From: Agrobacterium tumefaciens
GTDB lineage: Bacteria > Pseudomonadota > Alphaproteobacteria > Rhizobiales > Rhizobiaceae
Assembly: GCA_025559845.1 (NCBI GenBank)
Contig: CP048469.1
Coordinates: 496,001-560,000, forward strand
Length of the DNA stretch: 64,000 nt
Direction: 5' to 3'
The notes beneath the pieces are model-generated. The model was not told where the DNA came from. It saw only the letters and a program-made list of their open reading frames with translations, and ran no database searches. Both the position numbers and the translations under genes were made by a program. Below, in pieces: positions 2,165-64,000 of this stretch. The first letter of the stretch is position 1; every line of letters starts with the position of its first letter.

Positions 2165-2770
2165 TCAGCTTTGGCCTCTGAAACCGCGCGCGTCAATGGC
2201 GTCGGCAATCGCGTCCGCATCCTTCAACGTCATAATGATGACAGGAACGATGATTGTACCGGGTTTGGCCGGCACACCGCGCGCCCGGTGCGCATCCTTC
2301 ACCGCATGATAACGGTTGACGATTTCTGGTACGAAACGCACCACGAGTCCGACGGCAAGGCCAATGTCGGCGGCTCGGGCAAGTCCAAGCTTTTCAAGTG
2401 GTATTGCCGCCAGAGTTATCTCGTCCATAAACTGCGAAATGCTGACAGTGATGGTGATCGCCGTGGCGAGAAAGGCAAGCGAGGTCAATCGCAGCAGCGC
2501 AATCGTAGCATCATTTGCAGAAACAAAGGCGTAGCTGAAAGCGGCAACCAGAAGAATTGTCAGCATCACGGGACGAAGCCGGAAGGCGATATCCTTAAGG
2601 GGTAAGCGTGTCTGCTGCAGAACGACAGCGGCGACGATAACGGCCGCTGAGAGCAGCACGAGGTCACGCGTCAGGAACAACGCGACGCTGAAAGCGGCAA
2701 GTGCAACGAGCTTGATGCGCGGAGAAAGTCGATGAAGCCAACCAGATCCCTCAACGTGCAGCGATTTCAT
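2165..2770 (-). CDS. bioN: Energy-coupling factor transmembrane T component BioN
   Basis: 201 residues with four to five membrane spans. The C-terminal cytoplasmic part carries the T-component signature with Ala-Arg-Gly motifs (AHRARGVPAK near residue 167 and DAIDARGFRGQ near 190) that couple to the ATPase grooves. Its ATG overlaps the bioM stop by 4 bp (ATGA), which suggests translational coupling. T components link BioM ATP hydrolysis to toppling of BioY in the inner membrane. Shared family features cannot by themselves separate BioN from other T components (CbiQ-like); the neighbours make the assignment. Confidence 0.9.
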   Translation of the reverse strand: MKSLHVEGSGWLHRLSPRIKLVALAAFSVALFLTRDLVLLSAAVIVAAVVLQQTRLPLKDIAFRLRPVMLTILLVAAFSYAFVSANDATIALLRLTSLAFLATAITITVSISQFMDEITLAAIPLEKLGLARAADIGLAVGLVVRFVPEIVNRYHAVKDAHRARGVPAKPGTIIVPVIIMTLKDADAIADAIDARGFRGQS

Positions 2771-3447
2771 GATGCGGCCACCTCCAGATAGCGGTCGATC
2801 GCCTCTTCAGGTGCTGCATCGGCCACCAGCGATCCCTGATGGAACACCAGCACTCGGTCGAAATTTGCCAGCAACGGCAGATCGTGGGTGATAACGATCA
2901 GATCCTGCGACAGCGACGCCATTGTCTTTTCGACGATGGTGCGGTTTTTCAGGTCGAGCTGATTGGTCGGCTCATCGAGGATCAGCACTTTCGGCTCCGT
3001 GACGAGAAGCGCAGCAAGGGCCGAAAGCTGCAACTCGCCGCCGGACAGTTCATGGGCACGTCTGTCTTCGAGATGGGCAATGCCAAGATTGGTAAGGACT
3101 GTTTTTACTCGTCCCTCTGTTTCCGCTTTGCCAAGGCCAAGCCGCTTCAGGCCGAAGGCGATATCCTCGCGCACGATCGGCAGAATGATCTGGTTATGTG
3201 GGTTTTGAAAAATGAACCCGACAGTCCTGAGTACGGCCTCTGCGTCTCTCACCGTATCGAGCCGGTTGACTGTGACCGTACCGCTTGTCGGTTTGTTGAG
3301 GCCATTGATGAGGCGGGCGAATGTCGTCTTGCCCGAACCGTTGAGACCAACGACGCCGATACGCCGTTCCGTGAGTGTCAGTGACAGGGGGAGCAAGATG
3401 TGTCGGCTTTCAATGGTCACGCCGGCTGCTTCGAAACGAATGTCCAA
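2767..3447 (-). CDS. bioM: Energy-coupling factor ATPase BioM
   Basis: 226-residue ABC ATPase. Visible motifs are Walker A GLNGSGKT (34-41), Q-loop Gln81, signature LSGGE (134-138) and Walker B LILDEP (155-160) followed by the D-loop and a switch His in VITHDLPL. It powers biotin import with BioN and BioY. The start is probably TTG at 3447: AAGGA lies about 10 bases upstream and no in-frame ATG precedes it. It heads the bioMNY unit. The upstream region holds only a degenerate resemblance to a BioR box (GGTTCTATAACC at 3533-3544), so BioR control of this operon is not shown. Confidence 0.92.
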   Translation of the reverse strand: MDIRFEAAGVTIESRHILLPLSLTLTERRIGVVGLNGSGKTTFARLINGLNKPTSGTVTVNRLDTVRDAEAVLRTVGFIFQNPHNQIILPIVREDIAFGLKRLGLGKAETEGRVKTVLTNLGIAHLEDRRAHELSGGELQLSALAALLVTEPKVLILDEPTNQLDLKNRTIVEKTMASLSQDLIVITHDLPLLANFDRVLVFHQGSLVADAAPEEAIDRYLEVAAS

Positions 3448-3620
3448 GGTGCTGATGTCCTTACGAACGGAATGCGAAAACGGAGAACATTTCGCATGAG
3501 GTTCCGCTCAAATCATAATCGAGATCGGTTCGGGTTCTATAACCTCTCATCAAAAGAAGCGAAACAAGGAACAAAAAAAGAACATTGCAATCGCTGCAAA
3601 GCCGTCCTACCGTCAGCACC

Positions 3621-28785: not shown

Positions 28786-28811
28786 GGAACCAAATTCCGA
28801 TCCCTGACGTT
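28786..28811 (+). promoter_or_regulatory. EcfG-type general-stress promoter of csbD
   Basis: GGAAC at 28786-28790 and CGTT at 28808-28811 with a 17-bp spacer match the alphaproteobacterial EcfG (RpoE2/SigT) consensus GGAAC-N16/17-CGTT exactly. The CsbD start lies 51 bp further on. The downstream gene type fits a stress regulon. Confidence 0.85.
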
Positions 28812-28861
28812 ACTCCCCCGAAAACCGGACGACTAGTTCGGTTCAACAAGGGAGAAATACC

Positions 28862-29053
28862 ATGGGTAGCACATCCGATAAGATCGCCGGCAAAGCAAAC
28901 GAAGTCGCAGGCAAGGTGAAGAAAAACGTCGGCGAAGCGACCGGCGACAATGAGTTGCGCGCCAAGGGTGCCGCCCAGGAAGCAAAGGGCAAGGTGCAGA
29001 CCAGCGTCGGCAAGGCGAAAGACGCCGTAAAGGGCGCGGTCGACCGGATGTAA
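28862..29053 (+). CDS. CsbD family general-stress protein
   Basis: 63 residues, strongly hydrophilic and Lys/Ala/Gly-rich, with the repeated CsbD pattern [16 protein letters not shown] and [15 protein letters not shown]. CsbD proteins are among the most induced small proteins of bacterial stress responses, with no known biochemical activity. The exact EcfG promoter upstream indicates control by the general stress sigma factor. ATG at 28862 follows AAGGGAGA. A hairpin follows the stop. Confidence 0.92.
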
Positions 29054-41399: not shown

Positions 41400-41425
41400 A
41401 ACGTTTATACGCGCCCACCGGTTCC
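41400..41425 (-). promoter_or_regulatory. EcfG-type promoter of the secreted-protein gene
   Basis: On the minus strand GGAAC (41425-41421) and CGTT (41403-41400) are separated by 17 bp, an exact match to GGAAC-N16/17-CGTT. The gene start is 73 bp downstream. Divergent from ccrM. Confidence 0.8.
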
Positions 41426-61771: not shown

Positions 61772-62191
61772 TCAGTCTGCGGCGAGAAACTCTGCGCAAT
61801 AGCTTGGGCCGTTGACGCCGGGGCGATCAGAGACGGTACGAACGGAGGTGATCCGGTAATCGCTCGAAACGGTCAACTGCACCGTGCAGGAAAGATAGGC
61901 GGTGCGGGCAGGAGAAATCTGGCGGCCACGCTTGCCGTCCTTACCTTCCTCGAACTTCGCCGGAACGGTTGCCTTCTTGTAACCACCGCGCCAGTTGTAG
62001 ATGGTCGAGCTACCGGATTCAGTGTCGCTCTGCGGAGGGCCAAACTTTGCGAAGAAAATGCCAGCCGACTGACCGACCCAACGGGCTTCAACGGGGCTCT
62101 TCTGGATGAATGAGGGAGCGGAGCCTGTCGAGGTGGTGCAGGCGGAGAGCGCAATTGCCAGTCCTGCGAGCGTTACGCTGCGAAATTGCAT
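61772..62191 (-). CDS. Small lipoprotein of unknown function
   Basis: 139 residues. Signal MQFRSVTLAGLAIALSAC has lipobox LSAC at Cys18. The mature part has a region with WVGQSAGIFFAKFGPP and paired cysteines later (LSCTVQL, PSYCAEF). The pattern resembles small outer-membrane-assembly lipoproteins but no named family is recognised. ATG at 62191. Closed by a good terminator. Confidence 0.75.
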   Translation of the reverse strand: MQFRSVTLAGLAIALSACTTSTGSAPSFIQKSPVEARWVGQSAGIFFAKFGPPQSDTESGSSTIYNWRGGYKKATVPAKFEEGKDGKRGRQISPARTAYLSCTVQLTVSSDYRITSVRTVSDRPGVNGPSYCAEFLAAD

Positions 62192-62456: not shown

Positions 62457-62533
62457 CGGAGTGTAGCGCAGTCTGGTAGCGCACCACGTTCGGGACGTGG
62501 GGGTCGGAGGTTCGAATCCTCTCACTCCGACCA
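62457..62533 (+). tRNA. tRNA-Pro (anticodon CGG)
   Basis: A complete 77-nt cloverleaf with encoded CCA: acceptor CGGAGTG/CACTCCG, D stem GCGC/GCGC, anticodon stem CCACG/CGTGG with loop TTCGGGA (anticodon CGG), T stem GGAGG/CCTCT with TTCGAAT (one wobble pair). Discriminator A. Confidence 0.96.
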
Positions 62534-62673: not shown

Positions 62674-62698
62674 GGAACACGAACGCTCCCCAGCCGTT
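62674..62698 (+). promoter_or_regulatory. EcfG-type promoter before the 25-residue membrane peptide gene
   Basis: GGAAC at 62674-62678 and CGTT at 62695-62698 with a 16-bp spacer match the EcfG consensus exactly. The ribosome site GGAGGA follows at 62718-62723 and the ATG at 62728. Confidence 0.85.
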
Positions 62699-62727
62699 AT
62701 TCATCCAGAACAGCAATGGAGGATAAC

Positions 62728-62805
62728 ATGCTGAAGGGTATTGCACTTTGGGCCATGGGCGTTCCGATCTTCGTGATCATTCTGCTTTACATGTTCGTAT
62801 TTTAA
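62728..62805 (+). CDS. 25-residue single-span membrane peptide
   Basis: The peptide is MLKGIALWAMGVPIFVIILL followed by YMFVF, almost entirely a single membrane span with one Lys at the start. It has an ideal ribosome site (GGAGGA, 4 bp spacing), an exact EcfG promoter and a strong terminator, so it looks like a deliberate single-gene unit of the general stress response. Shorter than usual gene-finder limits. I recognise no named family; similar tiny proteins may exist in rhizobial genomes. Function unknown. Confidence 0.8.
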   Translation: MLKGIALWAMGVPIFVIILLYMFVF

Positions 62806-62831
62806 GCGAGCCCGTATCTTGGGTACGCAAT

Positions 62832-62870
62832 AAAAAAGGCGACCGCGAGTGCGGTCGCCTTTTTTGTTTT
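62832..62870. terminator. Bidirectional intrinsic terminator
   Basis: A 15-bp perfect stem (62832-62846 with 62851-62865, loop GAGT) with flanking A and T runs on both sides. It closes the small membrane peptide gene and cysN. Confidence 0.95.
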
Positions 62871-62882
62871 ATTCCAAGTGAC

Positions 62883-64000
62883 TTAGTCCAGTTCGCTGAT
62901 GATACGCGATGCTGTTGCCGTATCCGTGCGACGGATTTCAATGTCATCGCGGTGCTTGGCGAGGAGTTCGCTGGCAAGCAGCTTTTCAGCCAGTTCGGCG
63001 GGTAGGGACAGCACGACCCTGTCACCCTTAACCTCTGCATCACCGGCGTTGCGCTTGCCGAGGATCATGCCACCGGCCACCGTGTTGTTGGTGTCGGGAT
63101 CGATCAGAATGAAAGAGCCGGTTGAGCGGTTCTGCTCATAGGGATCGAAGATCGCTGTTTCGTCGAAGGAAAGCCGCACCTTGCCGATCGCATTCATCGG
63201 CAAAGTGGTTTCATGTGCCTTCCACTCTCCAACCTTGAGATCAAGCTGTGTGACTGGCTGGACGCTGACGCGCTGGCGGCGGCTGCCGCTTTTCAACCAG
63301 TAGCGTTTGCCGGGTTCGATACCGCCTGGCTGCAACGCCACGAGCTGCGCATCAAAGGCAAGGCCCGTCTGCGGCTGCGCCTCGATGGAGACAATCATGT
63401 CGCCACGCGAAACATCGACCTGGCGGTCGAGAACCAGCGTGACGGCATCGCCTGCGACGGCGGCATTGCGCACCAGATCGAATGTCACGATCTGCTTGAT
63501 ATTTGCCACCATGCCGGAGGGAAGAACTACGACGCTGTCGCCCGGCTTTACCGAGCCGCCCGCGACGGTGCCCTGATAACCACGAAAGCTTTCACCGGGG
63601 CGCGATACGCGCTGTACTGGCAGACGGAAACCACCGGATTGTGCAGAACGCACTGTTGCCAGCTCCAGGGTTTCCACCAGCGTCGGTCCCTCATACCAGG
63701 GCATGGACGCCTTGCCGGAGAGAACGACGTTCTCACCCTTCAATGCCGACATTGGAATGGCGGTGATCTGCTTGATGCCGAGTGCCGAGGCAAAATCGCG
63801 GAATTCATGCGCGATCAACTCGAAGCCGGCCTTGTCGTAACCCGTCAGGTCGATCTTGTTGATCGCGAGTACGAACTGACGGATGCCCATCAGAGCGGCA
63901 ATGGTGGCGTGGCGGCGGGTCTGCTCGAGAATGCCCACACGCGCATCGATCAGCAGAACGGCAAGATCGGCCGTCGAGGCGCCGGTTGCCATGTTGCGGG
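62883..64000 (-). CDS. cysN: Sulfate adenylyltransferase subunit 1 CysN, C-terminal part
   Basis: The frame is open to the window edge, so the N-terminus is missing; about 372 codons are visible. The GTPase G-domain part remains (TRNMATGASTADLAVLLIDA, then AINKIDLTGYD as the G4 motif), followed by EF-Tu-like beta domains II and III. CysN activates sulfate to APS with CysD. The linked APS kinase domain of NodQ-type fusions is absent, because the protein ends about 370 residues after the G domain begins. A strong terminator follows. cysD should lie upstream, outside the window. Confidence 0.92.
   Translation of the reverse strand, partial: RNMATGASTADLAVLLIDARVGILEQTRRHATIAALMGIRQFVLAINKIDLTGYDKAGFELIAHEFRDFASALGIKQITAIPMSALKGENVVLSGKASMPWYEGPTLVETLELATVRSAQSGGFRLPVQRVSRPGESFRGYQGTVAGGSVKPGDSVVVLPSGMVANIKQIVTFDLVRNAAVAGDAVTLVLDRQVDVSRGDMIVSIEAQPQTGLAFDAQLVALQPGGIEPGKRYWLKSGSRRQRVSVQPVTQLDLKVGEWKAHETTLPMNAIGKVRLSFDETAIFDPYEQNRSTGSFILIDPDTNNTVAGGMILGKRNAGDAEVKGDRVVLSLPAELAEKLLASELLAKHRDDIEIRRTDTATASRIISELD

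Follow-up and report, generated by a model that had tools for sequence, protein, structure and literature searches.

Within the window, a 64,000-nt stretch of Agrobacterium tumefaciens DNA, lies a conserved gene for a microprotein; its pattern of conservation indicates selection on the coding sequence, and it stands behind an EcfG-type promoter. The gene falls into an unnamed family of the alphaproteobacteria whose core is L-W-x-x-G-x-P, and we lean towards the view that its product spans the membrane once and serves, under EcfG control, as an accessory subunit of a membrane complex induced by stress. This role is the best supported of the readings, by the linkage and co-occurrence of relatives of the gene with a larger membrane protein; physical contact between the two proteins and the function of the complex are what we infer around it. 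According to the proposed mechanism, EcfG would transcribe the one-gene unit under stress, giving a single-span protein of 25 residues. Its short, positively charged N-terminus would stay in the cytoplasm, and its helix, kinked at G-x-P, would pack in the membrane against the glycine-rich partner of about 300 residues. A second microprotein of 24 residues would join the complex, which the window peptide would stabilise or gate.

The original prediction, which saw here a complete minimal transcription unit and perhaps an undescribed member of the general stress response, is supported overall. Beyond it, the family extends across the class and its relatives have a recurrent membrane-protein neighbour. 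A protein of 25 residues is easily overlooked by genome annotation, and this one represents a widely kept candidate target. The peptide, its promoter and the membrane protein linked to it are each defined genetically, so an effect of the stress response on the membrane is directly testable in laboratory rhizobia.

The window locus and selection on its reading frame

The locus spans 62674-62865 on the plus strand, where an EcfG-type box, a Shine-Dalgarno sequence, the ORF with its TAA stop and a 15-bp palindrome with A and T tails follow one another (Table 1). The exact promoter, the strong GGAGGA site and the ORF amounting to a single membrane span are thus present as predicted, with the box 54 nt before the ATG. 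The peptide has a GRAVY of 2.2 and a best 19-residue mean hydrophobicity of 2.49. An alternative in-frame start is probably not used: the MEDN/MEDS extension that it would add is present in L001-L023 only, among loci L001-L057. The terminator had been described as belonging to the gene itself; its stem and loop are there, but it is common to the convergent cysN gene on the other strand. Since it sits between convergent genes, it would be usable in both directions and can serve cysN too. A tRNA-Pro gene, downstream of which relatives were to be sought, is present in 22 of the 30 genus loci (in stretches of up to 3 kb); the class-wide family is not tied to this tRNA. The source genome (6.3 Mb, 4 contigs) holds a single copy of the peptide gene in a search at E<=10. 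Farther upstream, there is a 139-aa ORF on the minus strand (window 61772-62191) whose start (LSACTT) resembles that of a lipoprotein and which matches no family above cut-off.

Table 1. Features of the microprotein locus in the window, with the locus of the second microprotein (microprotein B).
Feature	Position	Strand	Details
tRNA-Pro(CGG)	62457..62533	+	upstream context, separate gene
EcfG-type promoter GGAAC-N16-CGTT	62674..62698	+	-35 at 62674-62678, 16-nt spacer, -10 at 62695-62698
Alternative in-frame ATG, MEDN extension	62716..62727	+	overlaps the Shine-Dalgarno region
Shine-Dalgarno GGAGGA	62718..62723	+	4 nt before the ATG
25-codon ORF MLKGIALWAMGVPIFVIILLYMFVF	62728..62805	+	ATG at 62728, TAA at 62803-62805; one hydrophobic stretch of membrane-span length
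Palindromic terminator AAAAAAGGCGACCGC-GAGT-GCGGTCGCCTTTTTT	62832..62865	.	15-bp stem 62832-62846/62851-62865, GAGT loop
cysN (sulfate adenylyltransferase large subunit)	62883..63998	-	convergent context gene, cut by the window end
Microprotein B and partner homologue	L254 (G000:C1:1319000-1324000), about 2252-3535	reverse

Conservation of the reading frame with synonymous bias, on which the original prediction had staked itself, is what we found. The pN/pS ratio is 0.09 in a close group comprising 18 distinct coding sequences and 0.19 across all 25 distinct ones from 30 genus loci; random change of the window sequence, taken as the unconstrained reference, gives a simulated median of 0.90. 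The variable sites in the close group, of 25, number 5 at codon position 1, 1 at position 2 and 15 at position 3. Alignment columns of the ORF and of the ten bases just upstream are conserved at 0.93-0.98; the value falls to 0.83 at -20 to -11 and ranges from 0.39 to 0.68 farther out. This pattern indicates that the window ORF is under purifying selection as a coding sequence.

Spread of the peptide family and of its promoter

Peptide matches were obtained in all 39 genus genomes and in 161 of the 297 family genomes (both at E<=1); a broader profile matched 96 of 190 family genomes, the two weakest matches lying within frames longer than 460 aa and possibly being false. At higher ranks, a profile matched 169 of 397 order genomes at E<=0.01, and matches were also present in 42 of 289 class genomes and 27 of 200 phylum genomes, seven of the last outside the class. 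Residues W8, G11, P13 and L19 are invariant in 40 aligned members. Among 117 distinct peptides, 113 carry the W-x-x-G-x-P motif, 113 have K or R among the first five residues and 86 have a second proline two residues past the first. The predicted topology is one span with the N-terminus inside.

The family had no match in Pfam, NCBIfam, PHROGs, PADLOC or PDB sequences, nor did the window peptide in Pfam and NCBIfam at E<=1. A single NCBIfam line for one relative (E 0.058) was far under its cut-off and was taken as chance. The Rfam scan gave nothing above gathering score except tRNA; sub-threshold matches, e.g. CsrC and STnc240, which cover the terminator hairpin, were rejected. The plasmid search with the Rhizobium-type peptide as query yielded no match. 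For the 30 Sinorhizobium plasmid records among the matches listed, the gene table, itself incomplete, gives no listed gene at the match in 17, a hypothetical protein in 12 and an unannotated entry in 1. In two loci (L091 and L185) a small gene starting MSIGTIILI lies close behind the peptide; we take it to resemble DUF3309 proteins.

Taken by itself, the promoter motif stays within chance expectation. The window holds 3 exact matches to the EcfG pattern where 1.21 are expected, a number that 13 of 100 shuffles also attain; in the whole genome the 132 matches are outnumbered by the 173 of the reversed control pattern. Lacking enrichment in either, the motif was rejected as sole evidence, and the case is therefore decided by conservation of the ORF and the box across relatives. 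One of the other two matches in the window (plus strand, N17 spacer) starts 76 nt ahead of a gene for a 63-aa CsbD-like stress protein, both within 28786-29053; the other (41400-41425, minus strand) lies within a mechanical 445-aa frame without a Pfam match and may be chance.

Across relatives, the box is kept ahead of many members despite their differing other flanks. In a first set, an exact box lay within 300 nt of the start in 65 of the 84 located members (from 85 loci, L060 being left out) and a relaxed box in 74 of 84, against 0.007 exact and 0.010 relaxed boxes per 300 nt in control stretches of the same loci. A larger set comprised 147 distinct members from 156 loci, fetched regardless of promoter as the best-scoring loci per search rather than as a random draw. 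Here an exact box occurred within 150 nt in 86 members and a relaxed one in 97, and 85 of these 97 relaxed boxes stood 50-69 nt ahead of the start; the background was 22 exact (0.24%) and 29 relaxed boxes in 9,088 windows. The proportion varies with rank: exact and relaxed boxes were found in 16 and 25 of 28 genus members, 35 and 37 of 48 family-level members, and 24 and 24 of 28 order-level members, but in only 11 and 11 of 43 members from class and phylum. Class and phylum members with the partner in the locus had a box in only 1 of 18 cases, a count that covers partners in loci up to L255 and leaves out those beside L258-L282. Among the 50 members without even a relaxed box, 20 show, within 100 nt, an intact GGAAC paired with a CGTT altered at a single position; 0.6% of background windows do so.

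Nine genus members have GGATC instead of GGAAC. In the accessible text of one report, the EcfG consensus is given as GGAAC-N16-CGTT with a flexible -10 box, and the AAC triplet of the -35 as almost invariant (PMC7083833); because GGATC breaks this triplet, EcfG control may be weak in those nine. A scan of the genome collection for the box together with the peptide codons returned at least 119 stretches, and 119 of 119 encode a member of 20-28 aa, one of them cut by the locus end; about 0.06 matches were expected by a hand estimate with equal base frequencies. Among the matches listed (80 titles) are Rhizobiales, Sphingomonadales, Rhodobacterales, Caulobacterales, Rhodospirillales and others, and four metagenome bins carry other names as recorded (Marinimicrobia, Gammaproteobacteria).

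The genome itself encodes PhyR and NepR (identified by Pfam/NCBIfam), an adjacent sigma factor and an HWE kinase, all within 3 kb, and we call the sigma factor EcfG because of its place beside PhyR and NepR. We infer that the window gene would depend on EcfG in this strain. Among 289 class genomes, 28 hold both the peptide and NepR (42 and 56 singly; p=1.2e-13). A box accompanied the peptide in 8 of 20 NepR-positive and 2 of 10 NepR-negative genomes (p=0.25), so NepR was rejected as a predictor of the box; as the box is not significantly commoner with NepR, EcfG control may not extend to every member of the family.

The membrane-protein partner and a second microprotein

In 14 loci from Rhizobium, Kaistia, Beijerinckiaceae and others, the peptide gene is followed within 6-13 nt by a gene for a glycine-rich membrane protein of about 300 aa, and in four loci outside the class this same protein precedes the peptide. 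Within 400 nt, the partner lies downstream on the same strand in 28 loci, upstream on the same strand in 4 and on the opposite strand in 2; these loci are a non-random sample, many chosen by the peptide pattern, and the count leaves out L247, which also has the partner beside the peptide. As a control, GxP peptides next to long frames of other kinds were counted (82 of 905), but the figure was discarded because its loci had been chosen for holding the peptide. The class sample, in which the two were sought independently, contains 24 genomes with both (42 and 32 singly; p=3.1e-17), and in 10 of these 24 they lie within 152 nt of each other. The association holds in NepR-negative (p=3.8e-7) as well as NepR-positive genomes (p=0.0013). 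Eight of the 32 partner genomes were without the peptide, and three of those eight have a divergent GxP peptide adjoining the partner.

The partner matched nothing above cut-off in Pfam and NCBIfam. Its homologues numbered 5,391 among 7,999 scored candidates, with record names shown as hypothetical, transmembrane, membrane or uncharacterized and once as PhnA-like. That last name is the UniRef label of one homologue (P0005), a record label only, for a protein without a Pfam or NCBIfam match above cut-off; the literature retrieved on “PhnA-like protein” was, by title, not about the partner family. An AlphaFold model of the partner shows long helices at modest quality (pLDDT 65.9, pTM 0.48) and had no match in the PDB at E<=0.001, so no function follows from the structure.

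In the source genome the window peptide and the partner homologue, which is distant at 40% identity, are unlinked. There, a different 24-aa membrane ORF, MNSIIYLVGLVVVVLFILSLLGLR (microprotein B), has its stop overlapping the start of the partner homologue (Table 1). It lies 129 nt behind an EcfG-like box, GGAAC-N16-TGTT, and adjoins csbD, itself with an exact EcfG box. Microprotein B is unlike the window peptide by eye and had no match in Pfam and NCBIfam or in a plasmid search. Of 38 partner regions from the class (45 rows minus the own genome and split pieces), nine have a B-like peptide ahead of the partner gene. Scored by script, these 38 regions have a GxP peptide beside the partner in 12, another transmembrane microprotein in 7 (six of the MNxIIYLVGL kind) and none in 19, the last group including the divergent L313, which is the L230 peptide-partner pair.

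Three loci (L286, L294 and L298) show the order microprotein B, partner, divergent GxP peptide; these GxP peptides have profile E-values of 0.0003-0.009 among 1,528 small ORFs. In a Bosea locus (L134), an intergenic stretch separates a GxP peptide from a second microprotein and the partner, which face it. We read microprotein B, the partner and the GxP peptide as one putative module whose parts can disperse. More tentatively, and with rather more doubt than confidence, the alphaproteobacterial general stress response may build an undescribed three-part membrane module from the glycine-rich protein of about 300 residues and a pair of microproteins, each some 23-28 residues long (GxP and MNxIIYLVGL), together or dispersed and often under EcfG, with the window gene encoding the GxP subunit. 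Two GxP peptides share a further locus (L188, 4718-7465): the first stands behind an EcfG box, and 1.7 kb beyond it comes a partner gene with the second peptide after it.

Alternative readings and relation to known systems

A subunit role has one sizeable competitor, which we nevertheless judge the less probable: the EcfG-driven membrane microprotein could act alone or on another target, such as the lipid bilayer, a respiratory complex or, by feedback, a stress-sensing histidine kinase, its linkage to the partner reflecting shared regulation only. This reading gains from the downstream neighbours, which are mostly unrelated (102 clusters among the 193 loci with a called downstream neighbour, 28 of them with a cysN homologue); a same-strand frame of at least 60 aa starts within 100 nt in only 49 of these 193 loci (mechanical frames). 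Likewise, 18 of the 42 class genomes with the peptide have no partner match at E<=1e-6. It accounts less well for close linkage that recurs in different orders and on different strands, also outside the class, and for a co-occurrence with the partner that persists in NepR-negative genomes.

The other readings are far weaker. TisB and Hok are hydrophobic toxin peptides, and the window gene, with its short hydrophobic product, stress promoter and strong terminator, could encode a stress-induced peptide of this type that depolarises the membrane and slows growth. We consider this improbable, given that the genome has a single copy, that every genus genome has a match, that the gene is strongly conserved and that relatives are linked to a membrane protein; moreover, no antitoxin was noticed incidentally, and the Rfam scan added only tRNA. 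That the promoter match is fortuitous, another sigma factor driving a real peptide gene in this species, is very unlikely: the motif count in the genome does not exceed the control and 50 of 147 relatives lack even a relaxed box, but the window box stands at the same distance from the ATG as in many relatives, against a background of 0.24% of windows. Least credible is a regulatory small RNA or leader with an incidental ORF. The predicted short transcript does fold better than 200 of 200 shuffles (z -4.3), its strongest part by eye being the terminator stem. Against this reading stand the bias towards synonymous change, the concentration of conservation in the coding part, an SD-like sequence ahead of 142 of 147 distinct members and the lack of any Rfam match besides tRNA above gathering score.

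The subunit role that we favour has precedents in the class of KdpF, CydX, AcrZ and MgtS, proteins of 20-50 residues with one helix that act through a larger membrane partner. The window peptide resembles them in being short, with one helix and no domain; it differs in having no match in Pfam, NCBIfam or PDB sequences, an unnamed neighbour protein and an EcfG-type promoter. The promoter agrees with the EcfG (sigma-T, RpoE2) regulon, as does the presence in the genome of phyR and nepR with a sigma factor gene beside them; the gene, a predicted member, differs in its product of only 25 aa.

The closest described protein may be SEP6 of Sinorhizobium meliloti, which has fewer than 30 aa and a predicted transmembrane helix, is found mainly in the P100 pellet and is conserved in Hyphomicrobiales, according to the accessible part of that report (PMC10117765). 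The window family is likewise short, with a predicted transmembrane helix and a member in S. meliloti, so that SEP6 may belong to it. A literature search, with most subscription journals and supplements outside its scope, found no description of the peptide family, and a search by six peptide strings gave no match. Intergenic transcripts dependent on rpoE2 have been reported, three of them sRNAs with SMb names in the part of the article available (PMC3616915). Within the succinoglycan cluster on S. meliloti pSymB, the family member sits between exoT and exoI, behind GGAACGGTTTGCGGCACGCCGCGTT. In two S. meliloti pSymB loci (L256 and L257), the annotation makes it the end of a hypothetical protein of 62 aa, whose start is placed upstream of the EcfG box.
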